A stretch of 32,378 nt of DNA from Candidatus Omnitrophota bacterium (GTDB taxonomy: Bacteria > Omnitrophota > Gorgyraeia > JAGLLT01). Location of the stretch: the NCBI GenBank assembly GCA_023140385.1, contig JAGLLT010000012.1:1-32378 (forward strand), read 5' to 3'. The translations under genes and the position numbers were made by a program. The notes beneath the pieces were generated by a model. That model made no database searches, was not told the DNA's origin, and saw only the letters and a list, made by a program, of their open reading frames with translations. The number at the start of each line of letters is the position of its first letter. The first letter of the stretch is position 1. Of the stretch, positions 1,390-23,618 are shown one piece after another.

Positions 1390-1418
1390 TTGACAAACGC
1401 GTTATTCTGTGCTACGTT
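1390..1418 (+). promoter_or_regulatory. Putative sigma70 promoter upstream of pcm
   Basis: A perfect -35 TTGACA (1390-1395) is followed by a 17-nt spacer and a weak -10 TACGTT (1413-1418). A second TTGACA, in the same TATTTGACA context, lies 25 bp upstream (1365-1370). The site is in the 267-bp gap between the divergent permease and pcm genes, about 55 nt before the pcm start; I see no other feature in that gap. Confidence 0.4.
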
Positions 1419-1471
1419 TATAACAGCTTCTTTAGAGAAAGATATTGAGAGCCTGAAGTGATGGTTAAAAC

Positions 1472-2182: not shown

Positions 2183-2198
2183 CCGTAAGTAATTAATT

Positions 2199-4667: not shown

Positions 4668-5939
4668 CTACTCTCCTTTGTATTTTACCAGGCTAAAAAC
4701 TTCTACTCCCTGTGATTCAAGATTTTCCCGGCCCTTTAAATCCTCCAATTCTACTACAAAAGCCGCTTCAACAATACTAACCCCTAATCTTTGTAATATT
4801 TTCACAAAGGCTGACGCCGTGCCTCCCGTAGCTATCAAATCATCTATAATCAAAACTTTGTCCTCTTTGCCAATAGCGTCTTTGTGAACTTCTATCTGGT
4901 CTTTGCCATACTCTAAATCGTATTCTTGACTATATGTAGGAGCCGGCAGCTTCCCTTTCTTTCTAACAAGAACAAAACCAACATTTAACCTGTCTGCCAG
5001 AATACTGCCAAAGACAAACCCTCTGGACTCTATTCCCGCGATTAATGTTATATCTTTATCCTTGTACCTGCCGCATAAAGCTTCCATCACTTTTCCCATA
5101 GCTTTGGTATCTTTTAATAAAGTGGTTATATCCCTAAACATTATTCCCTTTTTAGGAAAATCCGGAATTGTTCTAATACTATTCTCAACAACATTCTCCT
5201 TATCTGCGATCATCCTAACGGCTCCGGTAACTATTTTTACCATGTTTCCTATATTTTGAGAGAACATCTCTTTAATTTGAGGCCACGACACAGGAGCCTC
5301 ATCTTCTTTCCAACTGTCATAATCCGTAACCATGGCTATGGCCGCGTACTCAAGCCCTATTTCTTTTGCTAAAATAGCTTCTTGAGCCACTGTCATATTA
5401 ATAACATCGCCGCCTAACATTTTGTACATTTTTGATTCTGCTCTGGTAGAAAAGCGGGGGCCCTCTATTGTCACTACACAGCCTTTTTTATGATATCTAA
5501 TACCAAGCTCCTGACAACTTTCCGCCAACTTGCCTCTTAAAAATCCCGAAAACGGGTCACCCAAAGGAGCATGTACCGGCTCACCCTCAAATTTATCATA
5601 AAAAGTTGACTTCCTGCTTTTTGTAAAATCTAAAAATTGGTCTAAAACAACAAAATCGCCTCTCTTAATTTCCTCCTTTAAAGAACCTACTACAGTTGTT
5701 GCTATAATATGCCCTACGCCTTCGGCCTTTAGAGCGGAAATGATGGCTCTAATATTGACCTGGCTTGGCGGAGTTTGGTGCTCTTCGCCATGCCTCGAAG
5801 CCAAAACAATCTCTTGCCCGGATAAAAGTATTATATTTAATTTGACGGTTCCATAAGGCGTTGTTATTACGCTTGTTCTCCCCTTACCGATACTGTCCAT
5901 TTTCTCTAAACCGCTACCGCCTATCACGCCTAATTTCAT
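4668..5939 (-). CDS. Fusion of MTA phosphorylase and adenine phosphoribosyltransferase
   Basis: Two complete salvage enzymes in one chain. Residues 1-245 are a purine/MTA phosphorylase: GGSG (7-10), SRHGEEHQTPPSQVNIRA (48-65), EGPRFSTRAES (159-169), NMTVAQEA (181-188) and TDYDSW (205-210). The Asp pair in TDYDSW is the known mark of MTA or adenosine preference over inosine/guanosine. Residues 252-423 are a full-length APRT, including RTIPDFP at the start and the PRPP loop VLIIDDLIATGGTAS (362-376). The expected route is methylthioadenosine plus phosphate to adenine and methylthioribose-1-phosphate, then adenine plus PRPP to AMP. The junction (about 245-252) is short and in frame with no sign of a frameshift, so the fusion looks genuine. 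The gene converges on a spermidine-synthase-like gene, a possible source of MTA. Confidence 0.93.
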   Translation of the reverse strand: MKLGVIGGSGLEKMDSIGKGRTSVITTPYGTVKLNIILLSGQEIVLASRHGEEHQTPPSQVNIRAIISALKAEGVGHIIATTVVGSLKEEIKRGDFVVLDQFLDFTKSRKSTFYDKFEGEPVHAPLGDPFSGFLRGKLAESCQELGIRYHKKGCVVTIEGPRFSTRAESKMYKMLGGDVINMTVAQEAILAKEIGLEYAAIAMVTDYDSWKEDEAPVSWPQIKEMFSQNIGNMVKIVTGAVRMIADKENVVENSIRTIPDFPKKGIMFRDITTLLKDTKAMGKVMEALCGRYKDKDITLIAGIESRGFVFGSILADRLNVGFVLVRKKGKLPAPTYSQEYDLEYGKDQIEVHKDAIGKEDKVLIIDDLIATGGTASAFVKILQRLGVSIVEAAFVVELEDLKGRENLESQGVEVFSLVKYKGE

Positions 5940-7829: not shown

Positions 7830-7979
7830 GTGATTAAATTCCTTTTAAGTATTATTTAATTAAACAATCAAGCTTAAATCTCTGGTTTTATCTCACTTTT
7901 TATCCATAATAACATAAAATAAAGAGTTTTTGGCAAAAAAGAGAGGATATGCCTATTTATGATTTTTATATACCACAAC

Positions 7980-8011
7980 AAAAAACCCGAAAGGACTCAA
8001 TCTTCCGGGTT
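7980..8011 (-). terminator. Intrinsic terminator-like hairpin
   Basis: Read on the minus strand, the arms AACCCG and CGGGTT (8011-8006 with 7989-7984) plus three further pairs after one mismatch form a hairpin with an 8-nt loop. It is followed by a T-run at 7985-7980. It could end transcription from 8218-9099, or be the original terminator of a tRNA if the repeat at 8084 marks an old tRNA end. Confidence 0.5.
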
Positions 8012-8083
8012 ATAAGCATGGTAGAACTTTTGCAATAATCAATTCCTACGAAGCCAAAAACGAAAGCATTTTGGCGTAGTAGA

Positions 8084-8097
8084 ATGGTAGCCCCAAC
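8084..8097 (-). repeat. 14-bp direct copy of the tRNA-Glu 3' end (candidate att site)
   Basis: ATGGTAGCCCCAAC at 8084-8097 is identical to 23750-23763, which is the CCA end and acceptor arm of tRNA-Glu, in the same orientation. Just before it, both loci also share CGTAGT at similar spacing. Left of the copy there is a hairpin of GCCAAAA/TTTTGGC (8053-8075), then a terminator-like hairpin. The match is what an integrative element targeting the tRNA 3' end would leave at its distal border. The region around the copy does not fold into a second tRNA. Confidence 0.5.
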
Positions 8098-8133
8098 CCG
8101 CGCTGGACACTAGGGACACTTTATTTCTATTTT

Positions 8134-8214
8134 CAGTTGCTGGCATATAACGCTAGAGCTCACGGGCCACTGGACCGAAGGCATAGCGTTCCTTGTGCAG
8201 CAATTGGCTGGGCC
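8134..8214 (-). repeat. attC-like palindromic element A
   Basis: An ~80-bp nested imperfect palindrome immediately 3' of the stop codon of 8218-9099. Outer arms are CAGTTGCTG (8134-8142) and CAGCAATTG (8198-8206). Inner arms are AACGCTA (8149-8155) and TAGCGTT (8184-8190). The centre is CGGGCC-ACT-GGACCG. Its first 21 bp match element B (9723) at 18 positions, and a GTGCA box sits at the same offset in both. Conserved ends, a variable middle and a location after a gene are the marks of integron cassette recombination sites, though canonical RYYYAAC/GTTRRRY boxes are not exact. Confidence 0.45.
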
Positions 8215-10625: not shown

Positions 10626-11183
10626 TCAATCTAACCAAATATCAGTAACTATATCAAATAAATCCACATTGTCATAATCCGCCGGTAAAATATTCCATGC
10701 CGGTTTATCAAACAAATTATAATTCTGTTTAAAAAATCCATTTACTATCAGCTCTGAACATATCAATTTTTTATGGCTATCAAAAAGATTATGAACTTTT
10801 ACATATGCATTGCCAAACCCGAACCACCCGACAAGGAAGTTTAAAAGTTGAGGAAAATCATAAGGTGTGTTGTTCATTGCGGCCCACCACAATGCTACCT
10901 TTATTTTATCTTTTTCCTTTTCCCAATATTTTTTTCTCAAAACTCTTATTTCAATACCTTTCTCAACATAGTCCTTTTGCAAATTACAAGTTCTTGATTT
11001 TGGAACCTGGCCTTCAACCAAATCATAGCCTCCAATGCTTCCCGCCACATGCGTCCATTTGCTACTTTCGCCATACCCATATTTTTCCTGAATCTTAATA
11101 GTAACTCTAGTCCCGCTCGCAAATAGTATCACATCTCCTATTTTAATCTTATTAGGATCAATTTGTTTACTGTTCTGCATCAT
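10626..11183 (-). CDS. Permuted papain-like (NlpC/P60, YiiX-type) cysteine hydrolase
   Basis: A 185-residue protein with the layout of circularly permuted NlpC/P60 enzymes: KIGDVILF at 15-22, catalytic His45 in KWTHVA, and catalytic Cys142 in LICSELIVNGF. Relatives act as amidases or peptidases on peptidoglycan, lipids or proteins. There is no signal peptide, so it probably stays in the cytosol. The ATG is preceded by AGGAGG at 6 nt. It lies 46 bp downstream of the DUF6804-like membrane gene on the same strand and may be the tail of the long operon that starts near 20.2 kb, or a separate unit. The fold call is moderate; the substrate is unknown. Confidence 0.65.
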   Translation of the reverse strand: MMQNSKQIDPNKIKIGDVILFASGTRVTIKIQEKYGYGESSKWTHVAGSIGGYDLVEGQVPKSRTCNLQKDYVEKGIEIRVLRKKYWEKEKDKIKVALWWAAMNNTPYDFPQLLNFLVGWFGFGNAYVKVHNLFDSHKKLICSELIVNGFFKQNYNLFDKPAWNILPADYDNVDLFDIVTDIWLD

Positions 11184-11229: not shown

Positions 11230-11541
11230 TCACCCTTGTAAATTTTTAAATTTAAACAAAAATATTCCAAAAATTACGACATTTACTAAATCAACAAAAA
11301 TCCAAAATTCTCGACCGAAATAAAGTGGTATAACTGGATTAAACACAAGAGCGAGCAACCCCATTATCCATGCCCAGCGAATCCTTTGTTTCTTGTAAGA
11401 AACCCATGCTAAGAAAATAGCCGTAAAGCAAACAACAAGCCTTAGTAATGTATAGTAACCATAAGGCAATGGTAAGATTGCCAATAAAAGCATTACAATT
11501 GATGCAATAACAGGTGGTTTTATCGAAATCTTTGTGTCCAT
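11230..11541 (-). CDS. Small DUF6804-like membrane protein
   Basis: A 103-residue protein with three or four transmembrane helices. The pattern ILPLPYGYYTLLRLVVC, then a WAW-containing helix, FNPVIPL and a REFW turn, is that of the DUF6804 family of small membrane proteins with unknown role. I start it at the ATG at 11541, which follows GGGG at 4 nt. The longer reading frame to 11589 begins with an unlikely basic leader and would almost touch the preceding gene's stop. Confidence 0.65.
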   Translation of the reverse strand: MDTKISIKPPVIASIVMLLLAILPLPYGYYTLLRLVVCFTAIFLAWVSYKKQRIRWAWIMGLLALVFNPVIPLYFGREFWIFVDLVNVVIFGIFLFKFKNLQG

Positions 11542-11579
11542 ATAACCCCTTTGCCTTAATTTGCTTTGAGAGTAACTTT

Positions 11580-12002
11580 TTAGTCCCAATTTTTATTTTG
11601 ATCAAAATCAGACCATAAACCGGTTCCCTTTAAATCTGGTTGTCCGAATTTTGCATTATATTCTTTTGTGAATTTCATTTGTTTTTCAACGGCATTATCA
11701 AGATGGCGTTTCCATCCCCTCACATCAATACCATATTTTTCTTTATCATTATCTTGCAAGTCAAGAGACACAAGGGATCCTATTCTTATATTTGTTTCTT
11801 TTCCGTTCAAATCCTCAAAATATATTTTCGAATTACCCATAACACTTTGAATCTCTGACCACCAAAAATGTGGAAGTTTAGACTTAAATATTATTTTATA
11901 GTACCTCTTTTTAAAGAATGAAGTACCCTGCAATAAATAAGTATATACGTAAATATGGCTTTCTTTTTTCATGTCAGCAAATTCTAAAACTTTTAATTTC
12001 AT
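11580..12002 (-). CDS. Hypothetical protein
   Basis: A 140-residue soluble protein that I do not recognise. It is lysine-rich, with an aromatic-rich N-terminal half (YVYTYLLQG, then HFWWSEIQ) that could form a PH-like or similar beta domain, and a charged C-terminal helix ending in a DFDQNKNWD tail. The ATG follows AGGAGG at 6 nt. It begins 18 bp after the preceding membrane-protein gene, so it is very likely part of the Hsp70-kinase operon. Confidence 0.6.
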   Translation of the reverse strand: MKLKVLEFADMKKESHIYVYTYLLQGTSFFKKRYYKIIFKSKLPHFWWSEIQSVMGNSKIYFEDLNGKETNIRIGSLVSLDLQDNDKEKYGIDVRGWKRHLDNAVEKQMKFTKEYNAKFGQPDLKGTGLWSDFDQNKNWD

Positions 12003-12020: not shown

Positions 12021-12653
12021 TTATTCATCATATTTAACATCATCTACGTCAGGATCTTTATTCAAGTTTTTATCCTCTTCGATTAAATCAATATCTTCAA
12101 TTTGATCAGTGCTATCTGAAGTGCCCCCAACATCAATAACATCCTTTGATTGAATAAATTCGCCTGATATTCTTTTTTCCACTAGCGTTAATAGCCAGAT
12201 CCCATAAAAGCGCATACCATAGGTAAAAATAAGTCCTAATATTATTGAAAACCCCGCACCCCATTGCCCCTTAAAGAAAAGTCCAATGGCCGCGATTGGT
12301 GATACTATTTGAAACATAAACATAAAAAAGAAAGCTATCCATCCTAAATAATAAAATATGGTCAAGAAAGAAAACATGAATACTGATGCACCAACTATAT
12401 GAGAAAAAATAATCGATAATCCTGCGAGGTGATTATGAAGGCTTTTAAATAAAGACAATGGCAAAATAATTAACAGGAACAATCCTATGGAAGCGCCTGC
12501 TAATACAGATATTATTGGGTACAGAAATTCAGAAACCTTAAGGATGCCGAAAATGAAGATAAATGGGATCATGAGAAAACCCAGGAACATAAGGACACCT
12601 AAAATGCCTGAACCTAAACCCTTAATTTTGTCCTTAATATTAAATCCGGCCAT
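12021..12653 (-). CDS. Multi-pass membrane protein with acidic tail
   Basis: A 210-residue protein with about five or six hydrophobic helices (residues 12-165), rich in Phe, Ile and Gly, followed by a roughly 45-residue highly acidic cytosolic tail (SKDVIDVGGTSDSTDQIEDI and onward) that could be a kinase target or a chaperone docking segment. I recognise no family. AGGAGG precedes the ATG at optimal spacing. It sits 17 bp downstream of the zinc-ribbon membrane protein, so the pair are probably made together as the membrane part of the Hsp70-kinase system. Confidence 0.65.
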   Translation of the reverse strand: MAGFNIKDKIKGLGSGILGVLMFLGFLMIPFIFIFGILKVSEFLYPIISVLAGASIGLFLLIILPLSLFKSLHNHLAGLSIIFSHIVGASVFMFSFLTIFYYLGWIAFFFMFMFQIVSPIAAIGLFFKGQWGAGFSIILGLIFTYGMRFYGIWLLTLVEKRISGEFIQSKDVIDVGGTSDSTDQIEDIDLIEEDKNLNKDPDVDDVKYDE

Positions 12654-12670
12654 AAAGCCTCCTGGTTACT

Positions 12671-13603
12671 TCAGAAAAACCATGCTCTATTCCTAATGAT
12701 AGGAATTAATACTGTTAAAATCGGCATAACAATTAAAAATGTGACTATCTTAAATTTTCTGAATTTCACTTGTTTGTTCTTAACTGCTTCAATTCCTATA
12801 GCAAATAGTTTTAAAGAAACGGCAAGCAAAACAAATGGTATTAATATAACTATCAAAACGCCCACAAAATATCCCTTACTAAAAAAATCTGACCAATTAC
12901 TAACGTCGGTAATCGATTTGGAGCCAGTATAGAAAGCAAAAACTGATAATTTGCTTAAAAACTCAAGTATAGGGTTATAGGCAATAGTCATAAGAAACCA
13001 GAACTTTTTTGATAAACCGTAAAAAAAGAAATTAGTCCTATCTTTTTTATCTGAATAATCAAATTTGGCAGCTATTTTTGCCCCAATGAACGATCCAATT
13101 AAAACGGCAGTTATCTGTATTATCAATATATAAAGAAGTGAATCCGGCCAATCGCCTTCGAAGAATTGACCTTTAAAAATAAAAAGACCTGCCAGTAGCA
13201 AGGCTAACCAATATTTCATTAAGAGGCCTACCGTCAAATATATCCATGTTCTCAAACCTTTAAACCAATAGGCGAATAAACCGACAAAAAATATGCTACA
13301 TATAAAGTCGAAAATATATATTAAGGAATCAATGAAATGGCTTTGGAATTCTGAACTGAATATTTCAAGTTCGATGGATCGTTCATAAAATACTGTAATC
13401 ACATGACCTATGTTTGTGAAATACGAGAAACTCAAATAGAGAAGGAATATTGCCGCAAAACTGATCTGCTTGATAGTGCGGGAGGATTTATTTTTCTTTA
13501 CTTTAGCCGGTTTAATGGCGGGTAATTGTGTTCCACAAAATCCGCAAAACTTTGCTTCTACGCTTATATCTTTATTGCAATTAGGGCATTTCCTAAGGTT
13601 CAC
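12671..13603 (-). CDS. Zinc-ribbon multi-pass membrane protein
   Basis: Residues 5-23 form a double-knuckle zinc ribbon (CPNC, then CGFC; Cys6, Cys9, Cys20, Cys23). After a lysine-rich linker come about six transmembrane helices through residue 300. Bacterial proteins of this build usually anchor or sense at the membrane, and the ribbon is cytosolic. The second zinc-ribbon protein of the operon, the J-like protein at 18067-19920, carries a similar CPTC/CIQC module, which suggests that the two interact or share a partner. Translation starts with GTG at 13603 behind GGAGAG. The gene lies 33 bp downstream of the FHA gene. No specific function can be assigned. Confidence 0.68.
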   Translation of the reverse strand: MNLRKCPNCNKDISVEAKFCGFCGTQLPAIKPAKVKKNKSSRTIKQISFAAIFLLYLSFSYFTNIGHVITVFYERSIELEIFSSEFQSHFIDSLIYIFDFICSIFFVGLFAYWFKGLRTWIYLTVGLLMKYWLALLLAGLFIFKGQFFEGDWPDSLLYILIIQITAVLIGSFIGAKIAAKFDYSDKKDRTNFFFYGLSKKFWFLMTIAYNPILEFLSKLSVFAFYTGSKSITDVSNWSDFFSKGYFVGVLIVILIPFVLLAVSLKLFAIGIEAVKNKQVKFRKFKIVTFLIVMPILTVLIPIIRNRAWFF

Positions 13604-13636
13604 TTAAAACTCTCCAATATAATTTTAAGATGATAT

Positions 13637-13996
13637 TTAATCCTCAAAAGTTATATCTTCTTCTGAAGATTGTGATTTATTTTTTGGATGGTCTTCTACT
13701 CCTATTAGTAATTCCGTATCGCCAAACCCAATAGTGTCCCCTTTTGTCAACTCAATTTTTCCATGAACTTGACAATTGTTTACAAATGTTCCATTTGTAC
13801 TGTCGAGATCCTCAATTAAACAGATATCACCCTCCCAATATATAATAGCATGCCTCCTCGAACAAAAATCGTCATATCCTATACGTATATTTGCTTCCTC
13901 ACTTCGGCCTATTAGAATCTTGGAATCTGATTTTACGAAGTATTTATGCCCTTTTAGGGGGCCTGAAACAACAAGCACAACAACAAGTTTTGTCAC
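13637..13996 (-). CDS. FHA-domain phosphothreonine-binding protein
   Basis: A 119-residue stand-alone FHA protein. All signature residues are present: Gly30-Arg31-Ser32 in ILIGRS, Ser46-Arg-Arg-His49, and Ser66-Thr-Asn68-Gly-Thr70. It should therefore bind phosphothreonine peptides. About 20 acidic residues follow the domain. The GTG start overlaps the stop of the upstream kinase gene (GTGA), so the two are translationally coupled. FHA proteins are the usual readers of eukaryotic-like kinases, so a direct kinase-FHA relationship is the simplest reading. The target of binding (kinase autophosphorylation site, the J protein, Hsp70 or the acidic tail of the membrane protein) is not known. Confidence 0.9.
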   Translation of the reverse strand: MTKLVVVLVVSGPLKGHKYFVKSDSKILIGRSEEANIRIGYDDFCSRRHAIIYWEGDICLIEDLDSTNGTFVNNCQVHGKIELTKGDTIGFGDTELLIGVEDHPKNKSQSSEEDITFED

Positions 13997-15057
13997 ATTA
14001 TTACTCCCTTTTTCCAGTTATTTAATGTTTCCGCGTATTTTCCCTTCAAATGTTTTTGATGGTCTTTGGGATGTTGCGCTATAGACTCTTCCAGTAGTTT
14101 AATAGCATCATTAAGCTTCGTATATTGCTTCCCAAGCTGAAGCGCTTTTTGTATATTTACATTCGGTACTTTAATTTTTTGAAGCTCATATTGCTCTATT
14201 GCGTTATAAAATTCCCTAGCAGTTGAAAAACGGTTTTTCATATCAGGTTCTAAGGCTTTTAGAATAATTTCATCCAGCTCGCCATCTAAATCTGTATTGA
14301 ATTTAGAAGGTGGGTCTGGCTTTTTATTACGGGATGCCTTTATGGCTGATTTCATTTCATTTTTCTTAGTTGCCTGATAACCACTCGGCATTTTATAGGG
14401 AGGAATACCGGTTACCATAATATAAAAAATAATTCCTGATGAGAAGACATCGCTGGCCGGTGATTCATAGTCCCAGAAACCTTCAGGAGGCAAATAGGCC
14501 AGTGTTCCGGCTGCTTCTGTAATTCTTGTAACCGGATCAACATGTTTAGCTAAACCAAAATCAGAAACCTTGGCAACAAGATTATTGTGCCGTATTGATA
14601 ACATGATGTTTTGGGGCTTAACGTCTCTATGAACTAAAGGAGGCTTTGTATTGTGCAGTTTTGATAAACCGCAACAAATATCCTTTTGAAGCTTAATCGC
14701 TATATCAATCGAAAGCTTAATCTCAGATTCAATATAATCAGCTAGCGTGCCACCTTCCACATATTCCATCGCAATATAGCAATATCTATTACCATCAAAT
14801 TTAAAGGTATTTGCTTCATATACTCGCACAACATTTTCATGCGTAATCTTTGAGAGGATATAAGCTTCGTTAAATAACACAGGTTCTTGCTCTTTTGATA
14901 TGCTTCCCTGATGGAATATTTTCAGTGCCTGAATACCTAAATATTTGTGGCGCACCTTATATACGCCACCGAAAGCTCCTTCTCCAAGGAATCGATCAAT
15001 ACTGTAGGTCTCCCGTATTTTCGTGTACTTTGGTATTAAAATTCTCTTTATTGTCAT
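13993..15057 (-). CDS. Eukaryotic-like Ser/Thr protein kinase
   Basis: A 354-residue soluble Hanks-type kinase with every catalytic element intact: glycine loop GEGAFGGV (25-32), ATP-binding Lys46 in ALKIF, alphaC Glu64, HRDVKPQN (143-150) with catalytic Asp145, DFG (166-168), an activation segment with several Thr residues (TRITEAAGT), and PPEGFW in place of APE. After residue 290 a short TPR-like helical tail (NDAIKLLEESIAQHPKD) may bind partners. There is no transmembrane segment or PASTA repeat, so sensing must come from a partner. Its ATG overlaps the Hsp70 stop (ATGA) and its stop overlaps the FHA start, so Hsp70, kinase and FHA should be made in fixed ratio. Confidence 0.93.
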   Translation of the reverse strand: MTIKRILIPKYTKIRETYSIDRFLGEGAFGGVYKVRHKYLGIQALKIFHQGSISKEQEPVLFNEAYILSKITHENVVRVYEANTFKFDGNRYCYIAMEYVEGGTLADYIESEIKLSIDIAIKLQKDICCGLSKLHNTKPPLVHRDVKPQNIMLSIRHNNLVAKVSDFGLAKHVDPVTRITEAAGTLAYLPPEGFWDYESPASDVFSSGIIFYIMVTGIPPYKMPSGYQATKKNEMKSAIKASRNKKPDPPSKFNTDLDGELDEIILKALEPDMKNRFSTAREFYNAIEQYELQKIKVPNVNIQKALQLGKQYTKLNDAIKLLEESIAQHPKDHQKHLKGKYAETLNNWKKGVIM

Positions 15058-17555
15058 ATTTTCCGTATGCCTGCGTCACTCACCCTTTCACTTATCTTTT
15101 CTTGCTCATCTCGCGGCATTAAACTCCACAATTCAAACATTATGCTTTTCAATGAATCTAAATCTTGACGTTGCAAAGCAGCGCTTCCTTCATCAATTAA
15201 TTCTTCAGCTCTGTTTTTATCCGTAAAATTGCCTGGATCCTTTTTGACTTCTTGAAATGCAGAAACCCAAAACCCTGGCTGCCTGAACAATACTGCCCAT
15301 CTTATATTGATTATCTCTTCTGCAATCTTCTTGATCCTGTTAATATCTTTACTACCAATTGATTTCTCTGCCTCCTTTTTCAAGCTATATAATTGATCTT
15401 TATCATCATTGTTTCCATAAGAAGCGGTTATCTCTTCACAATCACTAACTATTTCATTGTATTCTTTCAGTGCTACTGGCCACTTGGCTAACTTCTCTAT
15501 AGAATCCAATTTTTGTTTTAACTCTTTCAAGTTTCGATCTGCTTTTTCCACAGCGTCAGGATCACCACCTTCAGCAGCTTGAATATCTGTTCTTATCTCT
15601 TTTATGCCTTCAGAAATATACGATTCAGACAGTTTATTCTCTATTGTCTTATCATTTGCCTGCATTATTTCTTGTTTTAATTTATTGAGCCTTTTTTCTT
15701 CACCATTGAGATCTGCCGCAATATGACCAGGCTCAAGCTTAGGTGATATTTTTTGAGTAACTATTCCGCTAATCTTTTTATCTAATAGCGGAATAAAAGC
15801 TTCTGCAGAAACAGCTCGTGACTGATCTACGCTAATTATTATTTCTACTTCACTATTTTCAGGAAGCGTTCTTGTAACGTCCGCCCCTTTAATCTGTAAC
15901 GTCCCAAGATGCCTATTTCTGTCTGCTATATCACTTTCTCCCTCCCATAGATGTATTTTTAATACGTCTTCATTCTCACCTGGCCGAACAGTTCGTGTTG
16001 TAAAATAGGAGAACGGCTTACTCCTTGCTGGCAAAGACTCACTTTTGGTCAAATGTTTACTAAGGGCTCCGTTTTCTAACTCTACCCCTATTGAACGGAT
16101 CAATGGTGGTTCCGCAACAGAGATACCCTGGGTAATCGTAAACGAATCTGGTTCAATTGGCACTTTATTTCCAGTTTTATCAAACAGCGCTAATGTAAAA
16201 TTATTAACTTTGTTTTCACGTAGATTTACATTTGCGAAAAAGGCATTATCTTTTATTTCTATCATACCGCTTTCCCAATCGCCGCCTGTTCTGTTTATTT
16301 GAACGCGCATACCCTCTGGCAGCTTCTCTTCTTCTTTGCTGGCGAAAAATCTACCTCCCACGGCGGGATCTATTTCTGTGGTCATCGGATTATACGCAAG
16401 CTTGACTGAAACTTTAGAATAATCCCTCTTTGTCAATTCATCAGGAATCAATTGCGAAGCCGCGAATATGGCAGCGCCTTGGGCAACAACTATTATCGGA
16501 TCAATCTTGCATTCAATTGGAATGCCAAAAGCATCCTTTAGTCTTTTTCGCACATAAGGAATTTGCGTGGGGCCGCCAACTAAAATAAGTTGAGATATAT
16601 CAGTAGGAGATAGCCCTTGGTTTTCCAAAACCGTACTAAATAATTGGATAGTTTTATCTATATAACATTCTATTAATGGAATAAATTCGCTTCTCTTAAG
16701 CGGAATAACGATATCAATTACCTTACCATTATTATCTTTATACCTATCACTATACACAACAATATCTGCTTCTTCACTTTGAGACAATTGTATCTTAGCG
16801 TCTTCGGCTGCACTTTTTAACCTCGCATTTAAGATTTGGTATTCTTTTGTCCTCCCTAATCCCGGTAAATTATATTCATTTGACAATACTGGATGTATTA
16901 TATTTTCAACAATTTTCCAATCGAAATCTTTTCCGCCCAAATGATTATCGCCAAAGTGATCAACAACACTTAATCTTCCTTCTTTTGCTGACATGATAGC
17001 TACATCGAATGTGCCTCCTCCAAGATCAAATACGATCCAATATCCTTTTGGCATTTTCTCAAGAAAACCGTAAGCAATTGAAGCAGCAATGGGTTCTTGG
17101 AGCAAAGGAGCATATTTTATTCCTGCGATTTTTGCTGCTCTTTGCGTTGCTTCACATTGGACTATCTCAAAATTGCAAGGAACTGTAATTACTGCGCAAC
17201 TAATTTCATCTTCCTCTGGTAAATTCTTTTTCGCAGTTATTTTTAAATCCTTTAAAATTTCTGCTGAAAGCTCTTCAGGGCTGAGTTTTTTATTACTTAA
17301 AACAAATTTTTTAACTTGTTGCGTCCCCATCCACCTTTTAAACTCTTCTACAGTATTATCGGGGTCATCAATAAGCCGTTCGTATGCTTTTCTCCCCACT
17401 CTAACAGTACCTTTTTCGTCTATCCTAACAACTGATGGGGTGAATTCTTCCCGCTTATAATTTTTAAAAACACGTACCTCACCATTTTCCATACATGCAA
17501 TTTCTGAGTTAGTTGTGCCTAAATCAATACCAAAATCTATTGTTTGTCTATTCAT
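15054..17555 (-). CDS. Hsp70-family (DnaK-like) chaperone with extended helical C-terminus
   Basis: An 833-residue divergent Hsp70. The ATPase domain (1 to about 385) has the phosphate-1 loop DLGTTNS (11-17), Lys73 in FKRWMG, LQEPIAAS (152-159), phosphate-2 DLGGGTFDV (177-185), and the adenosine motif LVGGPTQIPYVRKRL. A DnaK-like beta substrate domain seems to occupy about 390-590. Residues about 600-833 form a long helical region, larger and different from the DnaK lid, with no EEVD-type end. It is clearly not the housekeeping DnaK. The gene begins 3 bp after the GrpE-like gene behind AAGGAG and ends in an ATGA overlap with the kinase, so the chaperone and kinase are linked in translation. 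Its client is unknown. Confidence 0.92.
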   Translation of the reverse strand: MNRQTIDFGIDLGTTNSEIACMENGEVRVFKNYKREEFTPSVVRIDEKGTVRVGRKAYERLIDDPDNTVEEFKRWMGTQQVKKFVLSNKKLSPEELSAEILKDLKITAKKNLPEEDEISCAVITVPCNFEIVQCEATQRAAKIAGIKYAPLLQEPIAASIAYGFLEKMPKGYWIVFDLGGGTFDVAIMSAKEGRLSVVDHFGDNHLGGKDFDWKIVENIIHPVLSNEYNLPGLGRTKEYQILNARLKSAAEDAKIQLSQSEEADIVVYSDRYKDNNGKVIDIVIPLKRSEFIPLIECYIDKTIQLFSTVLENQGLSPTDISQLILVGGPTQIPYVRKRLKDAFGIPIECKIDPIIVVAQGAAIFAASQLIPDELTKRDYSKVSVKLAYNPMTTEIDPAVGGRFFASKEEEKLPEGMRVQINRTGGDWESGMIEIKDNAFFANVNLRENKVNNFTLALFDKTGNKVPIEPDSFTITQGISVAEPPLIRSIGVELENGALSKHLTKSESLPARSKPFSYFTTRTVRPGENEDVLKIHLWEGESDIADRNRHLGTLQIKGADVTRTLPENSEVEIIISVDQSRAVSAEAFIPLLDKKISGIVTQKISPKLEPGHIAADLNGEEKRLNKLKQEIMQANDKTIENKLSESYISEGIKEIRTDIQAAEGGDPDAVEKADRNLKELKQKLDSIEKLAKWPVALKEYNEIVSDCEEITASYGNNDDKDQLYSLKKEAEKSIGSKDINRIKKIAEEIINIRWAVLFRQPGFWVSAFQEVKKDPGNFTDKNRAEELIDEGSAALQRQDLDSLKSIMFELWSLMPRDEQEKISERVSDAGIRKI

Positions 17556-17558
17556 GCC

Positions 17559-18056
17559 TCACTCCTTTTTAGCTTTTTCTTTAGATTTTCCAACTATAAC
17601 TTCTCCATGAGATATAATTTTTCCTTTAAAATAAACAGATGGTTTTACTGTTTCCAGCATATTCATCTTACCATAAGGAAGATTATCAACCTCTTCAACA
17701 TGAAGTACTTTGACGGACATTCCATCGTTATAATCAGTATTTGCATGCTCAACAATTTCAATATCTTGTTTCTTAAAAATATCTTTAATTCGTCGAATTT
17801 GGTCTACAATTGAATTATCGATAGCGTTTTCACTAGCCTTACTTATCCTTTTATCAAGTCTCCACATCTCAATTGCAAATAAAGAAATAAGTTCAATGGA
17901 TGATATAAGTTCTGAGGCATCATGTGCATTCTCAGGTGATATAAGCTTACATCCGCTAGCAATACATCTTTCAAATTGAGCGCGGTCTTTGAAGAAATAT
18001 ATCAATCCTTTGTCATTTTTATTGGAAACCATCCTAATTTTTGGCTTTTGTGACAT
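17559..18056 (-). CDS. GrpE-like nucleotide exchange factor (divergent)
   Basis: A 165-residue protein directly upstream of the Hsp70. The N-terminal third is not GrpE-like. Residues 55-100 form a long helix, and residues about 110-157 have the GrpE beta-domain pattern: MSVKVLHVEE, then METVKPSVYFKGKIISHGEVIVGK, where GrpE has a TVxPGY…GKVIRPAxVxV strand pair. The operon position between a J-like protein and Hsp70 supports a nucleotide exchange role. The typical GrpE length is near 190 aa, so this is slightly short. GGGAGGG precedes the ATG. Identification rests on weak motif similarity plus context, so it is a probable call rather than a certain one. Confidence 0.7.
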   Translation of the reverse strand: MSQKPKIRMVSNKNDKGLIYFFKDRAQFERCIASGCKLISPENAHDASELISSIELISLFAIEMWRLDKRISKASENAIDNSIVDQIRRIKDIFKKQDIEIVEHANTDYNDGMSVKVLHVEEVDNLPYGKMNMLETVKPSVYFKGKIISHGEVIVGKSKEKAKKE

Positions 18057-18066
18057 GCAGCCCTCC

Positions 18067-19920
18067 CTATTTAACTTTTCTGTTGTAAGATTTCACTAAA
18101 TCATCATGCGTAGAAATATCTTGTTTATACGATTCGAATAGTCTTTGGTATTCTGAATATACATTATTATATGATTCAAGCATTGTGTTGTACTTATTGA
18201 TTTTTTGGTTGTATTTATCGAACAATTTATCTTTTCCAAACGACGTTCTCTTGATTTGCAAATCAAGTGCGTCTATTTCTGATTCCAATGCCTTTAGTTT
18301 GACGCCACTAGATTTCAGCGTTGCTTCCAAATCAAACAATCTACTTTCCTTCTCCTTTACTGTTTCAGCTAAAGCCTCACTTCTTGACTTCAGTTGGTAC
18401 AGGCTTGGGCTAGAACTAGAAGATTTACTTTTATATGAAGAAGTGCTTTTTGAAGTGCCGCCATTCGATGAATCATCATTCAAATTAACCATAACGACAA
18501 TAAATCCAATTAATAATATCCATCCAATAACAGACTTCCAATTTGAACCTGATGATGACTTTTTAGATGGATTATAACCTGCGGAACTTGAGGTTGATTG
18601 AGTAGACGCCCCTTCGTCATTATATTTACTACTCAAACGCGCACTTTCCATATTGCTTTTTGCAATTTCTTCGTCCTTTGCAAATTTTTGTTTAATATAT
18701 TGCGAACTAGCATACTCAAGTGCCTTTGTTACCATTTCATAGGCCTTTTGATAACCCCATTCACGCTTCTTTGCGGATATTGCTTTGTCTGCTGCCAGCA
18801 TATTATTAAGAATAATGCCCATATCTCTAAGATTACTTGCTAGCCCATCTCGGGCCAAGCCATAATCTGATATGCAATTAAAATCCACGATATTACCTTC
18901 CGCAATTATTTTCGAAACATTTTCTTCAAACCTAGAATATATATCTATAATAGTGTTTATTGGCTTGTTTTCTATTTGCTCAAATTCAGCAACTTCTTTA
19001 GATGAATTTTGACAATGTCTATTAATTAAAGTAACATGCGAAGCTAGTATTTCATTAAACCCTTCCCTTAAATATTCATATGAAAATGAGGATCCATTCA
19101 ATAAGGCAGCGTGCTGTTTAGTTCTTTCATAATCCTTAGACACAAGTGACTGAGATAAAAATCTGAAGTTGGGATTAGCTATATCACCTAAAAAATTATC
19201 GCGTATTTCTTGGATCTTCCTCACGGATAATCTTGGGTCATTAATTCTCTCGGCCTTTTCTCTTGTTCTTTCCCAGAATAATTCATTCGATGCAAGCAAT
19301 GAAATTCTGTTAATGGCAAATCTCCAATTTGTCCAGTGAGTTTCCGATAAATTGACGTTTCTTTTTTTCGCCGATTCGCTTTCTATTCTTAATTTTTTTA
19401 ATCTATTGCCACACTGTATGCAAAACCTATAATCTTGTCCAAACTGCATATTACACGTTGGACAAACCTCTTTAGTGAATGCGTCTACCTTATATTTAAG
19501 GTTCATCTCTCTTCCTATCACGCTACTATGAGATAAAATCATCTGGTTAACTAAAGCTGATACTTTCTCTTTCTCTGGGACATCAGAAGCAATAGTAGAC
19601 TTCCATAATTCATAAGAAGATTGGCGATTCTTATTAAACAAACAATCAAGTGCTTTTCTGTCACCGTCTGTATCAATCCAAAACCAGAAAATTTCTTCTT
19701 TTAGCCTAGAAATGGGGTTTTCCAGTCTTTGCAATGCATTAATAACACTTTGCTCACTTCTATCAACTTTTCCCATCCAAGAAAAGTCAAACTTATATGA
19801 CACACCGATACCCAATGACTTTTTTACTTTTATCTCATTAACCCGCTGCATTATCTCTCCAATGGAAGCATCAGAGGTTAACCCTAGCACTCTAAAAGCG
19901 TTATTTTGATATCTATACAT
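18067..19920 (-). CDS. J-like, zinc-ribbon, single-pass membrane coiled-coil protein
   Basis: A 617-residue protein with four recognisable parts. Residues 5-80 resemble a J domain start (NAFRVLGLTSDASIGEI) but the HPD tripeptide that stimulates Hsp70 is absent. Residues 153-170 are a C4 zinc ribbon (CPTC, CIQC). A transmembrane helix spans about 462-480. From about 500 to the end a charged region forms a long coiled coil. A serine-rich linker precedes and follows the membrane span. With GrpE-like and Hsp70 genes directly downstream, the protein could recruit the Hsp70 to the membrane and sense through its extracytoplasmic coiled coil. AGGAG precedes the ATG. The J-domain relationship is inferred from sequence pattern and context. 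Confidence 0.72.
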   Translation of the reverse strand: MYRYQNNAFRVLGLTSDASIGEIMQRVNEIKVKKSLGIGVSYKFDFSWMGKVDRSEQSVINALQRLENPISRLKEEIFWFWIDTDGDRKALDCLFNKNRQSSYELWKSTIASDVPEKEKVSALVNQMILSHSSVIGREMNLKYKVDAFTKEVCPTCNMQFGQDYRFCIQCGNRLKKLRIESESAKKRNVNLSETHWTNWRFAINRISLLASNELFWERTREKAERINDPRLSVRKIQEIRDNFLGDIANPNFRFLSQSLVSKDYERTKQHAALLNGSSFSYEYLREGFNEILASHVTLINRHCQNSSKEVAEFEQIENKPINTIIDIYSRFEENVSKIIAEGNIVDFNCISDYGLARDGLASNLRDMGIILNNMLAADKAISAKKREWGYQKAYEMVTKALEYASSQYIKQKFAKDEEIAKSNMESARLSSKYNDEGASTQSTSSSAGYNPSKKSSSGSNWKSVIGWILLIGFIVVMVNLNDDSSNGGTSKSTSSYKSKSSSSSPSLYQLKSRSEALAETVKEKESRLFDLEATLKSSGVKLKALESEIDALDLQIKRTSFGKDKLFDKYNQKINKYNTMLESYNNVYSEYQRLFESYKQDISTHDDLVKSYNRKVK

Positions 19921-19946
19921 TCATTCTCCTGCGAAATATTTTAATA

Positions 19947-20144
19947 TTACTTAATTCTTGCTCTTGTTTCTTCATCGTGTTTGCGCTTTACATACTTATC
20001 AATTTCTTGTCTAGTTATCCTATAGCCACCGCGCCTACCTTCCTTATAAGCCTTTATTTTCCCAGCTCGAATAAGCGCGCGTAAGTATTCTTCACTAACT
20101 CGTAACAAATCAGCAACTTCTCTTGTTAAATATATTTCTTGCAC
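19947..20144 (-). CDS. Excisionase/MerR-like HTH DNA-binding protein
   Basis: A 65-residue protein that is a single winged helix-turn-helix of the excisionase (DNA-binding domain, excisionase family) type: YLTREVADLLRVSEEYLRAL, then GKIKAYKEGRRGGYRITRQEID. It starts with GTG at 20144, 7 nt after GGGAG. It is the first gene behind a perfect consensus promoter and is followed after 26 bp by the J-like gene, so it probably regulates the Hsp70-kinase operon. Xis-type proteins in mobile elements also serve as recombination directionality factors, but no integrase is nearby, so regulation is preferred. Confidence 0.85.
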   Translation of the reverse strand: MQEIYLTREVADLLRVSEEYLRALIRAGKIKAYKEGRRGGYRITRQEIDKYVKRKHDEETRARIK

Positions 20145-20201: not shown

Positions 20202-20230
20202 ATTATATGCAATCTAATACATTGTGTCAA
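20202..20230 (-). promoter_or_regulatory. Perfect consensus sigma70 promoter of the Hsp70-kinase operon
   Basis: On the minus strand, TTGACA (20230-20225), an exact 17-nt spacer and TATAAT (20207-20202) match the sigma70 consensus at all twelve positions. Transcription would start near 20195, leaving about 50 nt of leader before the GTG of the HTH gene. Such a strong promoter normally needs repression; the HTH protein is the obvious candidate. The remainder of the 209-bp gap (20231-20353) holds nothing I recognise. Confidence 0.85.
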
Positions 20231-20353: not shown

Positions 20354-21922
20354 TCATTCTTCCATCCTATTCAATATACCCTTTACATACGCATAATGCT
20401 TTTTTGGATTAGAAGTGCTCTTTTTGGCCACAATAGCAAACGCCTTCTTCACTTGCTCTTCACCAAAGGATTCCATCATCATTATGATATCTTCTACCGT
20501 CTGCGAGTCATTCTCCTTAAAGACTATCTTTGCGTGCTCTCTTGCTCTATTTAAACTCTTTGAGCCATAGGCTAACTCTAACCTATCCCACTCTGCCTCC
20601 AGCCGCTCCGGGTCATATAATGGTAATAGCTTATAGGATTTGGCTAAAAGGGTTTTGTAGGAATTTCCTTTAGGGCTGTCATAGGATACGTCTATAAGAT
20701 TTTCTCTTCTTAGCTCCTGCATCCCTCTACCTATAACCCACTTGCTTACATTAAAACGTTCAGCTAAGACATCCCCTGAAGAAAACCACCAGGGATTAGC
20801 ATTGCTTATGCTTACATAGGCTAAGTTAATAAAATAGCAAAATTTCGCCCTCATAGAGAGCTTTCTGCTCCATCCGTATTCCCAAAAATTATCCGGCACC
20901 TGGAAATACCATTCCTTTGGCGTTTTATAAATCTCGTCAGGATTATCATAATTTAATAACGTAACAGTCGCGTCCTTGCCATATTCCGGTTCAAATCTTA
21001 TAATCTCATAGGTGTCTTCAAGTTTTCTCAGGCTTTTTATAATCTGTCTTCTATAGCCGGTTCTTGTCATTTTATCACTCAAGCCTAAATCATCGGCTAT
21101 TTTTTCATAATTTAATATTATTTTACCTTGAGAGTTCCCATCAAATTCCCTTAAAAGTAACAAATATATATTAAAAGCTCTTTCATCGCGCTTTGTTAAC
21201 ATCCGGCCGGCTAATTTGGGATTCTCCAAAAGTTCCCATGATACAGGAACACTGCCCTCTGATATTGGCATACGAACTTTTTCATCTATCTTAATCTTCT
21301 TAAAATACTCATAAAGCTCACTTGCTAATCCTTCTGACTTTATCAAGGTGTTAGTCTCTACGTTTTTGCTAAACGCGTTCTCGCTCCAGTTAGCACTGCC
21401 TATTATGACAATCTCCTTATCTATCACTATTGTCTTGGCATGGGTATATGTGGTGAGGTTATCGTAATAAACGTCTATGCCTCCCTCATTGAGCATTTTA
21501 AAGCACCAGGCATTCTTACCCTCAGCTATCCATTTACCTTTATCCCGACGGTTAACAAAATCTATATTTTGATCCAGAATAACCCTTACATCCACTCCCC
21601 GCTTGTGAGCCTTCACCAACTCATCAACTATTTTATATACTTTTGAGTTTTTATGATAAGGGTTTAAACTTACCTGAAACATCACCATATATATTGATTC
21701 TCCTGCCTGCTCTATCGCTTTCTTAACGGCCGGATAATACTTTTTTCCACTTATATCCAGAACACCCGCGGAATATGAATTTTTTATGGGGGTATTTTCA
21801 GATATTTGCGCTGTGGAAGGAGTTGTGGTATATAGAGAAATACTTGATATGAAAAGGATAGCTGTCAAAAACAGAGTAAATCGTATTTTCTTTAACTTAG
21901 CTATCAATCTGCTTTCAGCCAT
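20354..21922 (-). CDS. Exported phospholipase-D-family protein with winged-helix C-terminus
   Basis: About 522 residues. A basic leader and hydrophobic segment (15-31) ending in STAQ look like a signal peptide or anchor. Residues about 50-215 form a single PLD/HKD phosphodiesterase module with His161-x-Lys163, Asp168, GSANWS (175-180) and Glu189; one HKD copy means it must dimerise, as Nuc-type endonucleases do. The C-terminal 300 residues hold two winged-helix-like units similar to plasmid replication initiators (residues about 255-320 and 395-450, the second around FNVSKWVIGRGMQELRREN). I start at the ATG at 21922, spaced correctly from AGAGAG; upstream ATGs fall within the AbiEii gene. It starts 19 bp after AbiEii, so it is probably the third gene of that operon. 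Confidence 0.8.
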   Translation of the reverse strand: MAESRLIAKLKKIRFTLFLTAILFISSISLYTTTPSTAQISENTPIKNSYSAGVLDISGKKYYPAVKKAIEQAGESIYMVMFQVSLNPYHKNSKVYKIVDELVKAHKRGVDVRVILDQNIDFVNRRDKGKWIAEGKNAWCFKMLNEGGIDVYYDNLTTYTHAKTIVIDKEIVIIGSANWSENAFSKNVETNTLIKSEGLASELYEYFKKIKIDEKVRMPISEGSVPVSWELLENPKLAGRMLTKRDERAFNIYLLLLREFDGNSQGKIILNYEKIADDLGLSDKMTRTGYRRQIIKSLRKLEDTYEIIRFEPEYGKDATVTLLNYDNPDEIYKTPKEWYFQVPDNFWEYGWSRKLSMRAKFCYFINLAYVSISNANPWWFSSGDVLAERFNVSKWVIGRGMQELRRENLIDVSYDSPKGNSYKTLLAKSYKLLPLYDPERLEAEWDRLELAYGSKSLNRAREHAKIVFKENDSQTVEDIIMMMESFGEEQVKKAFAIVAKKSTSNPKKHYAYVKGILNRMEE

Positions 21923-21941
21923 TACCATTCTCTCTAAAATT

Positions 21942-22856
21942 TTATTTCCATGGCCCGGGAGCTTTCCATTTTTCATTAAACCTAATACCTTTATTGATTG
22001 CAACTAACGGCTCAATAAGAAACTTGTCTATCTCTCTAACTGTTGTGCTCAACTTTTCCGGCGCATGTTTAATATCTCCCTTCTTTAAAAAAGCCTTCCA
22101 TAATGTTTGCCGGTCAGATTTCTCATTATAAATTTCTTCAGCAAATAATGGCTTACATTGCGGCAAAGAAGTTTTACGGTTTTTAAATGTTCTTTTTAAC
22201 GCCTCGGAAAGTCTTGTCCCATCAAAGTTAAACTGATGCATAATAAGCCAAACATCATAAAAATCTTTCATTCTGCTGTTTAAAAAACCAAGTTTTACCA
22301 TAGTCTCAAATTTCTCACTGACAACACTCTCCGCCGGATATCCTTTAAGCTTAGGTTTTGGAAAATCTAAAATAACAGGATATTCAATTATTTTTGGCTT
22401 TGGATAAATAGTATCTCCAAAACCTATATCAACCTGCATAGAAATACGAGAACGCTCAAGTAATCCCAAAAACTTAACTCGTACCCCTTCATAATCGGCA
22501 TCTTCTTTTATTCGTTGACCTTTAATGTTTTTACAATCAAAGATAAGCCCATCAGAAACCACATCGATTTTACAAATATCCTTTATCATTTTCTCAATAC
22601 TAGATACCTGATTATCATATTGCGCTGAAAAGTCTATATCAAGGGTTGTCCTTCGTTCAGGCACATGCCATGCAGTAAACATCAAAGCCCCCTTAAGGAT
22701 AAACTTATCCGCATATTTAGACTGACTCACACGATAAAGAAATCTCTCCATGCCGTAATATTGGAGAACTTCAGAAAATGGGCGATTCGTTTTTTTCGCT
22801 TTATTCTGAAGCTGAGCCTTAATGGAGGCTTCTATATTTTTAATATCTTTTTTCAT
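21942..22856 (-). CDS. abiEii: AbiEii-type nucleotidyltransferase toxin
   Basis: A 304-residue DUF1814 nucleotidyltransferase, the toxin of type IV AbiE-like toxin-antitoxin/abortive infection modules. Motif I is FILKGALMF (52-60) followed by TLDIDFSA with the metal-binding Asp73-x-Asp75. A further acidic strand QVDIGFGD and the motif KFETMVKLG…SRMKDFYDV are present downstream. Its ATG overlaps the AbiEi stop (ATGA), giving antitoxin-first translational coupling as usual in this family. Known relatives modify tRNA or otherwise act as bacteriostatic toxins on phage infection. All key residues are intact. Confidence 0.9.
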   Translation of the reverse strand: MKKDIKNIEASIKAQLQNKAKKTNRPFSEVLQYYGMERFLYRVSQSKYADKFILKGALMFTAWHVPERRTTLDIDFSAQYDNQVSSIEKMIKDICKIDVVSDGLIFDCKNIKGQRIKEDADYEGVRVKFLGLLERSRISMQVDIGFGDTIYPKPKIIEYPVILDFPKPKLKGYPAESVVSEKFETMVKLGFLNSRMKDFYDVWLIMHQFNFDGTRLSEALKRTFKNRKTSLPQCKPLFAEEIYNEKSDRQTLWKAFLKKGDIKHAPEKLSTTVREIDKFLIEPLVAINKGIRFNEKWKAPGPWK

Positions 22857-23455
22857 ATCATTGTTTCCAGCATTGGTTTAATAATTTTATGTACACGGCA
22901 GATTTTAGCGTATTTCATTATATCGAGTGGTTTTATGCCCTTCTCGGTAACCGCTATCCTAAGCGCGTCCCTGGCAATATTTACACCTATTCTATTGCGA
23001 AACTTAAAACAATCAGCAATCGTTTTAGCAAGGCTGTAAACTCTAATTTCATGTCCTTCAGCTTGATGTACATCAACGCCAGCATTCCAAGTTTTAACTG
23101 AAAAACGATAAAATCGTACTGGTGGGTACTTAATTCTATTGGCACGAGTCCCCGCGGGGATTGCAATATCTACATACCCGGGTATCTCATTCGTTGCTTC
23201 ATGAAAAAAAAGGGCAGACACAAGACAAATAATCCCTCTTGGCGCCTGAAGAGACGCAATGACAAGATCAGGATATGGCCCAAACGTATAATGAGTCATC
23301 CGGTAAAGCCCCCTGGCAATCTTCTCTATTTTACCTTCTTTCTCAAGTGCTCTAAGCGTATCTGGATGAAACCCCGCTTTTATAATTGAAGAAAACCGTG
23401 CAATGCCGCCATTTTTTTTGAAATAGTTGAGTATTTTTTCTGTTTTTTGTTTCAT
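22853..23455 (-). CDS. abiEi: AbiEi-type antitoxin and transcriptional repressor
   Basis: A 200-residue AbiEi-family protein: an N-terminal winged helix (residues 1-55, ILNYFKKNGGIARFSSIIKAG, then GLYRM) followed by the AbiEi C-terminal domain (VSALFFHEATNEIP, then AKTIADCFKFRNRIG). AbiEi antitoxins neutralise AbiEii and repress their promoter. I start it at the ATG at 23455, which is 6 nt after GGAGAG. The longer frame to a TTG at 23491 would begin inside the -10 box and is rejected. A palindromic operator overlaps its promoter. Confidence 0.88.
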   Translation of the reverse strand: MKQKTEKILNYFKKNGGIARFSSIIKAGFHPDTLRALEKEGKIEKIARGLYRMTHYTFGPYPDLVIASLQAPRGIICLVSALFFHEATNEIPGYVDIAIPAGTRANRIKYPPVRFYRFSVKTWNAGVDVHQAEGHEIRVYSLAKTIADCFKFRNRIGVNIARDALRIAVTEKGIKPLDIMKYAKICRVHKIIKPMLETMI

Positions 23456-23479
23456 AACCTCTCCGTATAAATTGTCACT

Positions 23480-23519
23480 ACTTGTTAACAAGTATATACG
23501 TTTTATACGAACATGTCAA
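23480..23519 (-). promoter_or_regulatory. AbiE promoter with palindromic operator
   Basis: TTGACA (23519-23514), a 17-nt spacer and TATACT (23496-23491) form a near-consensus promoter reading towards abiEi. A perfect 14-bp palindrome, ACTTGTTAACAAGT (23480-23493), covers the end of the -10 and the expected transcription start, and a CGTATA direct repeat lies in the spacer. This is a textbook position for autorepression by the AbiEi winged helix. Confidence 0.8.
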
Positions 23520-23618
23520 CACTTTTTCTTACCTAAATAATATGGTTTGAAACAGTTTCATTTTGTCAATATATTATAGTCATTTAAGAATAATTATAAA
23601 CCCTAAATCTATACCATT

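Follow-up and report, generated by a model that had tools for sequence, protein, structure and literature searches.

An operon with its own Hsp70 machine

What is a second Hsp70 machine doing beside a protein kinase gene in a bacterium that is already equipped with the first? The question is raised by the 32,378-nucleotide stretch of Candidatus Omnitrophota DNA analyzed here as a whole (contig JAGLLT010000012.1 of assembly GCA_023140385.1; hereafter the window), in which a minus-strand operon encodes an Hsp70, a GrpE-like and a J-like protein, a Ser/Thr kinase, a phosphothreonine reader of the FHA type, and membrane proteins. The canonical grpE-dnaK pair of this genome sits on another contig (C7), and the chaperone set of the operon is therefore an additional one. 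Judged from its sequence and that of its relatives, the locus is very probably a mobile cassette of Hsp70, J-like, and GrpE-like genes in which the output gene can be exchanged. The operon is given below in its reading direction, together with a promoter-like site in front of it and two further open reading frames (ORFs) behind it (aa, amino acids).

20202..20230, minus strand: promoter-like site TTGACA-17-TATAAT, 58 bp upstream of the first gene
19947..20144, minus strand: small helix-turn-helix (HTH) DNA-binding protein of the HTH_17 type (AlpA/excisionase-like), 65 aa (Pfam, 3e-13)
18067..19920, minus strand: J-like protein, 617 aa, with a J-like domain (1-80), a zinc ribbon (153-175), a transmembrane (TM) segment (463-481), and a C-terminal coiled coil
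17559..18056, minus strand: GrpE-like nucleotide-exchange-factor homologue, 165 aa (hhalign, AlphaFold2 [AF2], and fold search)
15054..17555, minus strand: long-form Hsp70, 833 aa (Pfam Hsp70, 2e-86)
13993..15057, minus strand: Hanks-type Ser/Thr kinase, 354 aa (Pfam Pkinase, 3.6e-50)
13637..13996, minus strand: FHA phosphothreonine-reader protein, 119 aa (Pfam, 3.6e-19)
12671..13603, minus strand: zinc-ribbon membrane protein, 310 aa, with five hydrophobic segments (Pfam, 2.5e-6)
12021..12653, minus strand: membrane protein, 210 aa, with four hydrophobic segments and without a Pfam family
11580..12002, minus strand: protein of unknown function, 140 aa, 18 bp past the preceding gene, with a good ribosome-binding site (RBS), AGAGGAGG
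11230..11589, minus strand: DUF6804 membrane protein, 119 aa (Pfam, 2.8e-25; phmmer, 4e-18 to its homologue in the related cassette L028)

The ORF calls place all eight genes from 20144 to 12021 on the minus strand. Read from the sequence, the first junctions have gaps of 26 bp (HTH to J-like), 10 bp (J-like to GrpE-like), and 3 bp (GrpE-like to Hsp70), hsp70 and the kinase gene meet in an ATGA overlap, the kinase and FHA genes meet in a GTGA overlap, and the last junctions have gaps of 33 bp (FHA to zinc ribbon) and 17 bp (zinc ribbon to TM protein). The promoter-like site (20230-20202), which is a sigma-70-type consensus match only, is the sole 12/12 match among 43 candidates in the region. 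The HTH_17 protein is the probable regulator of the operon; similar HTH genes stand first in the L028 cassette and upstream of the grpE-like gene in L114. Given the 18 bp gap and the good RBS that follow the eighth gene, and given that a DUF6804 homologue closes the L028 cassette, the operon probably continues through the ORF at 11580-12002 to the DUF6804 gene, as a unit of at least 10 genes.

In the output part of the operon, the kinase keeps the GxGxFGxV, ALK lysine, HRD, and DFG motifs, and the FHA protein keeps GR, S..H, and NG. The PADLOC model of PD-T4-6, a single-kinase antiphage system, matches the kinase domain (5.8e-59), the kinase being here a member of an operon. PADLOC 2023 returned no family at E ≤ 0.01 for the window Hsp70, J-like, GrpE-like, or FHA proteins, and Pfam gave no match to an AAA or protease family in the window operon.

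The long-form Hsp70 and its helpers

By its sequence, the window Hsp70 belongs to a rare long-form family of about 830 aa. Its predicted structure (pLDDT 81) consists of a nucleotide-binding domain (NBD, 1-370), an extra beta domain (about 380-480), the beta part of the substrate-binding domain (SBD-beta, about 489-598), and a helical tail (609-832), and Foldseek aligns the model to BiP (target TM-score 0.82, about 633 columns) and to DnaK. The protein retains the DnaK phosphate loop and the residues equivalent to K70, E171, D194/T199, and D201, all of which are invariant in the family alignments. The motifs GIDLGT, FKR, QEPxAA, and DxGGGT are conserved in 20 of 20 family Hsp70s, and FKRxMG and QEPxAA are invariant motifs of the long form. 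Sequence, profile, and fold mark the window Hsp70 as a predicted competent ATPase. The VLLLDV interdomain linker is absent from all 20 members, and the extra beta domain stands in its place.

The two helpers have no Pfam match to the J-domain or GrpE families. When 17 small proteins that adjoin the family Hsp70s were aligned, their profile matched canonical GrpE (hhalign P = 9e-6). The J domain of DnaJ was matched in the same way by 17 aligned J-like regions (hhalign P = 5e-6). In the controls, wrong pairs scored P 0.2-0.85, and 60 column-shuffled versions never fell below P 0.05 (J) or 0.2 (GrpE). For the GrpE-like protein, the first 12 PDB matches of the fold predicted by AF2 (pLDDT 76) are all GrpE. 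The HPD motif is absent from the J-like domain in every cassette examined. In the window J-like protein, basic residues ahead of the TM segment and acidic residues behind it suggest that the N-terminus lies inside and the coiled coil outside.

The original prediction, made from the sequence alone, had described eight genes running in one direction with short gaps, a Hsp70/J-like/GrpE-like triad, and an intact kinase and FHA protein. ORFs, spacings, and both overlaps agree with that layout, the motifs confirm the catalytic and phosphothreonine-binding residues, and the controlled profile comparisons (for GrpE, also the predicted fold) uphold both helpers. Four points need amendment: the end of the operon, which probably lies past 12021 at the DUF6804 gene; the J-like protein, which has the J-domain homology, zinc ribbon, TM segment, and coiled coil, and lacks HPD; the chaperone set, which the genome has in addition to its canonical grpE-dnaK; and the AbiE and PLD genes, which are neighbors separate from the operon.

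Relatives, rarity, and mobility

We searched plasmids, viral contigs, genomes, and 5,426 Escherichia coli genomes and found 19 other independent full-length long-form Hsp70s, which are about 26-35% identical to the window copy in alignments; near-duplicates on sister plasmids count as one, and the total leaves out a disrupted copy from Aeromonas, which shares 98.6% identity with that of Shewanella. The family, which is also seen in Pseudomonadota, Bacteroidota, and phages, is rare: it occurs in 2 of 384 genomes of the class of the window, 3 of 399 Pseudomonadota, and 1 of 5,426 E. coli, with one copy per hit genome. In 783 genomes, the family profile scored members at 807-1222 bits and no other protein at E ≤ 1e-130, and the search was repeated with a wider profile. 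As a lone query, the window Hsp70 retrieved only one ordinary DnaK from genome contigs, and the L028 Hsp70 matched itself alone among viral contigs; DnaK matches overwhelmed the viral search made with the whole-Hsp70 alignment, and a trimmed alignment added four more members.

The best identity of the window Hsp70 to any member is 35% (L028). L026 is the only other copy in the class of the window. It shares 65% identity with the E. coli copy, and the tree places it with that one (92/90) and with other proteobacterial copies, far from the window copy. The Hsp70 tree thus contradicts taxonomy and shows horizontal transfer.

The cassettes are found on plasmids, on a Tn7-like element, on prophage-like contigs, and in islands. 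Of the 20 members, six lie on viral contigs, each with phage genes nearby: an amidase and an integrase (L028), a terminase (L029), a tail gene (L120), an endolysin and an integrase (L121), a portal gene (L122), and a major head gene (L123). One Tn7-like element (TnsABCDE) carries both the Shewanella and the Aeromonas copy as cargo, near mer genes, and several copies are on conjugative plasmids. The sole E. coli copy (L117; E. coli HeN100, NZ_CP044443.1, 14630-21413) is in an island between integrase remnants, along with RdrB (RADAR), a dptF remnant, and CbtA toxin-antitoxin genes. Elsewhere, the defence neighbors of the cassettes include BREX and Gabija, the latter together with a type IIG enzyme or with Zorya. 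Gabija pairs were observed downstream of three cassettes; they are full-length in L022 and L023, and weakly GajA/GajB-like in L019.

A conserved core with exchangeable outputs

The core of the cassette consists of the GrpE-like, Hsp70, and J-like genes, and almost all members have both helpers adjoining. On the unrelated prophage-like contig of L028, the order is HTH, J, GrpE, Hsp70, AAA, two further genes, and DUF6804, which matches the window order; in Haliscomenobacter, the order is J, coiled coil, Hsp70, kinase-AAA, and TerB, adjoining BREX. The output gene usually encodes an AAA ATPase: an AAA protein directly follows hsp70 in about half of the cassettes, with IetA/TRIP13-like matches where tested. 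The window has the kinase, the FHA protein, and the membrane proteins in that place.

Among the related cassettes, the kinases closest to that of the window are fused to AAA parts, and their catalytic motifs are broken. In L017 (11523-13337), which also has a TerB gene, and in L029 (12582-14360), such a fusion directly follows the long-form hsp70 and has HNE or FNS instead of HRD; these proteins apparently represent an undescribed pseudokinase-AAA architecture. A conserved kinase-FHA core was ruled out, as no other cassette has an FHA gene and the other kinases are all HRD-less fusions. A hidden kinase in the N-terminal region of the AAA proteins was likewise ruled out (hhalign P = 0.65).

The J-like protein is often anchored in the membrane or accompanied by a peptidoglycan (PG)-binding partner. 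That of L019 is fused to TM and PG-binding parts, those of L024 and L122 have a TM segment and a C-terminal part homologous to TM/PG-binding proteins that other cassettes encode separately (L021/L115 type), and Pfam PG-binding matches occur in L019, L021, and L026. One member, L116 (9037-11565), lies amid chromosomal genes of housekeeping look and is possibly an orphan or decaying cassette.

A variable island in the window genome

The extra Hsp70 is absent from three family relatives of the window genome (G001-G003). Compared with G003 (L212), the window has two blocks of 88-90% DNA identity, at 1342-4605 and at 21927-23527 (AbiE). Between these two blocks lie 17.3 kb in the window, including the operon, versus 2.1 kb in G003, which makes the locus a variable island. 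To the right of the AbiE block, the core is about 65-72% identical between the window and G003, which belong to different genera. The segment is near a tRNA-Glu (CTC) gene in both genomes; an att-type direct repeat of this gene was sought at the left end, and no exact 15-mer repeat was found. With the canonical grpE-dnaK on another contig and G001-G003 lacking this copy, a housekeeping heat-shock operon was ruled out.

Several other features of the region were observed. Short window stretches (8084-8206, 7919-8024, 10635-10731, and 1222-1294) recur inside the same region of G003. AbiE and a PLD gene are neighbors separate from the operon, and AbiE is also present in a related genome without the chaperone operon. 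The PLD-domain protein (20354-22003, 7e-28) is hydrophobic over an N-terminal stretch, and Pfam matches nothing in its long C-terminal region; its gene is possibly an extra defence-type gene adjoining AbiE. The window also encodes a Macro domain (ADP-ribose binding) fused to Nudix (26971-27903), conserved in G002 and G003, and a nucleoside phosphorylase-phosphoribosyltransferase fusion (4668-5939) that was not found in the three family relatives searched.

Proposed function and rival explanations

The best explanation of the whole, to which we give about an even chance, is that a mobile, dedicated Hsp70 machine, kept at the inner membrane, acts as a conformational switch, here with a kinase-FHA output. 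The parts of the machine, the relatives of these parts, and the mobility are shown by the data above; the direction of signaling, the trigger, and the purpose we infer as follows. The J-like subunit, with its N terminus in the cytoplasm, would tether the Hsp70 under the envelope and present a client, and an envelope or protein-folding disturbance would alter Hsp70 occupancy; phage entry is the favored trigger because mobile elements carry the cassette. The Hsp70 state would then switch on the translationally coupled kinase, and the GrpE-like protein would reset the Hsp70 cycle. The FHA protein would read phosphothreonine on the kinase or on another cassette protein and would recruit the zinc-ribbon and TM proteins as membrane effectors.

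Such a cassette is probably a cell-envelope alarm or an anti-virus device, and the chances that its job is to protect the host against phages or other mobile elements appear evenly balanced. A bolder version, which we put forward only tentatively, would place the cassette in a new class of mobile immune switches, with a dedicated wall-tethered Hsp70 machine and its HPD-less J protein as the sensor. That sensor would, with the same reserve, monitor client occupancy at the envelope and not nucleic acid, and the outputs would be an AAA remodeler, a pseudokinase-AAA protein, or, as here, an active kinase together with membrane effectors and a protein that reads phosphothreonine.

Several observations weigh against the switch and its defensive role. 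A J-like protein without HPD might fail to stimulate ATP hydrolysis, and gene overlap is the sole basis on which we infer the step from Hsp70 to kinase. No toxin, nuclease, or NADase is recognizable among the window effectors. The FHA-like protein is found only in the window and is absent from the other cassettes, a TM helix or TM partner was not detected for the J-like protein of every member (e.g., L018), and the L116 Hsp70 has neither a GrpE-like nor a J-like neighbor, so the core is not universal. A defence locus surrounds the cassette in 4 of 8 plasmids, versus 2 of 8 same-size control windows on the opposite side of the same plasmids; the difference is not significant with this small control, and the association with defence is thus suggestive and not established. 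Defence-island enrichment on plasmids is accordingly not demonstrated.

These results reshape the interpretation first given to the locus, that of a dedicated triad wired to phospho-signaling at the membrane, perhaps for defence. The triad stands as dedicated, mobile, membrane-linked, coupled to an output, and conserved in distant bacteria and mobile elements; the kinase-FHA wiring, seen in a single cassette, finds no support as a rule. Conservation among the neighbors is accordingly split, the chaperone core being conserved and the kinase/FHA part not. Horizontal spread of the neighborhood was borne out by a tree at odds with taxonomy. The defence idea remains plausible, with BREX, Gabija, Zorya, and RADAR as neighbors elsewhere, and the small control on the same plasmids showed no significant enrichment of defence loci.

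Of the rival explanations, the one that survives best, with a minor though real share of the probability, is an accessory envelope-stress or proteostasis system that, when heat, metals, or wall damage put the cell under abiotic stress, monitors or repairs proteins of the envelope and membrane, and that is carried as fitness cargo rather than for immunity. The PG-binding and TM parts of the cassettes and the TM proteins of the window fit it, as do the Tn7-like copies near mer genes, the TerB gene in L017, and the DjlA-DnaK-GrpE-Rcs precedent (PMC11709261); however, the very sporadic distribution, the frequent prophage location, and the defence-island neighbors suit immunity better than a general stress locus. 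Regulated proteolysis or disaggregation is clearly less likely. The Hsp70 would pass clients to an IetA/TRIP13-like AAA protein, and in the window the kinase would be a regulator and the AAA part would be missing through loss. In favor are the IetA- and TRIP13-like matches of the AAA proteins and the place of an AAA protein immediately behind hsp70, which holds for about half of the cassettes and for the two kinase-AAA fusions; against this, the window operon has no AAA or protease gene, and the AAA N-terminal region is not kinase-like (hhalign). Phage lambda recruits the host DnaK, DnaJ, and GrpE, and a mobile-element helper that folds or assembles phage-particle, conjugation, or partition proteins would suit the six members that lie by structural or lysis genes on viral contigs and the several on conjugative plasmids, but it is the least likely of the three, as the cassette also occurs in non-phage settings (Tn7-like cargo, chromosomal islands, and the window) and is not accompanied by a conserved structural gene of phages or plasmids, and the kinase, AAA, and PG-binding partners are not obvious assembly factors.

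If the conformational-switch explanation is right, a portable Hsp70-J-GrpE machine serves bacteria and mobile elements as a signaling switch rather than as a housekeeping folder, and it would offer a direct bacterial test of an Hsp70 state that is read out as phosphorylation or as an AAA signal. The family is compact and includes an E. coli copy and Tn7-like copies in Shewanella and Aeromonas, which makes it testable.

Comparison with known systems

In open-licence full texts, we found no earlier description of the cluster, either as a system of its own or as a housekeeping stress locus, in agreement with the original prediction; the nearest accounts are those of Kaur et al. (2020) and of the CoCoNuTs. 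The nearest described neighborhood is the Hsp70-GrpE-DnaJ theme of the GAP1-N2 systems, whose second theme comprises HSP70, GrpE, and a DnaJ-FNIII protein (Kaur et al. 2020, PMC7159879) and whose third, separate theme has an active kinase with a zinc ribbon (PMC7159879). These predicted conflict systems also join Hsp70, GrpE, and a J-domain protein and are membrane-linked, and the window has this triad, with a J-like protein that lacks HPD. In contrast to them, Pfam scans found no GTPase (TRAFAC DO-GTPase) or FNIII domain in the window operon and its neighbors, nor in the related cassette genes scanned; moreover, the cassette J-like proteins lack HPD and are fused to TM/PG-binding parts, and the output is AAA or kinase-FHA. 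The Hsp70 theme of GAP1-N2 is mainly reported from actinobacteria and firmicutes, whereas the long-form cassettes are in Pseudomonadota, Bacteroidota, and phages. That the cassette forms a class of its own, beyond chaperone-centered conflict or stress cassettes, is a possibility we regard as doubtful.

Mobile defence superoperons of the CoCoNuT kind likewise encode Hsp70-like proteins, and some include a Ser/Thr kinase (TerY-P) (PMC11090510), and the Type III protein CnuD is Hsp70-like with Walker A-like motifs described as degenerate (PMC11090510). The window Hsp70 differs in its intact ATPase motifs and dedicated GrpE-like and J-like genes, and Pfam scans found no McrB GTPase or McrC DUF2357 gene adjoining it. 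The TerY-P triad (vWA, PP2C, and a Ser/Thr kinase-zinc ribbon) is also a kinase signaling module of defence and stress loci, whereas the window operon has no vWA or PP2C, and its kinase protein has no zinc ribbon (Pfam). With canonical DnaK/DnaJ/GrpE, the cassette shares a homologous core machine, the fold, and an NBD with catalytic ATPase residues followed by an SBD; it differs from them in the extra beta domain, the long helical tail, the divergent GrpE, and the loss of the VLLLDV linker and of HPD.

Two precedents connect J proteins with sensing. DnaJ is required for phage sensing by bNACHT25 (PMC12169576), and DjlA, a membrane-anchored J protein, drives the Rcs envelope-stress phosphorelay via DnaK and GrpE (PMC11709261). 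DjlA has a functional HPD J domain, uses the general DnaK and a histidine phosphorelay, and has no dedicated operon, all unlike the cassette; it is nonetheless the works-like analogue, in which a membrane-anchored J protein, Hsp70, and GrpE switch phospho-signaling. If our explanation is right, the cassette would join chaperone sensing of the bNACHT25/DnaJ and DjlA/Rcs kind to mobile defence.

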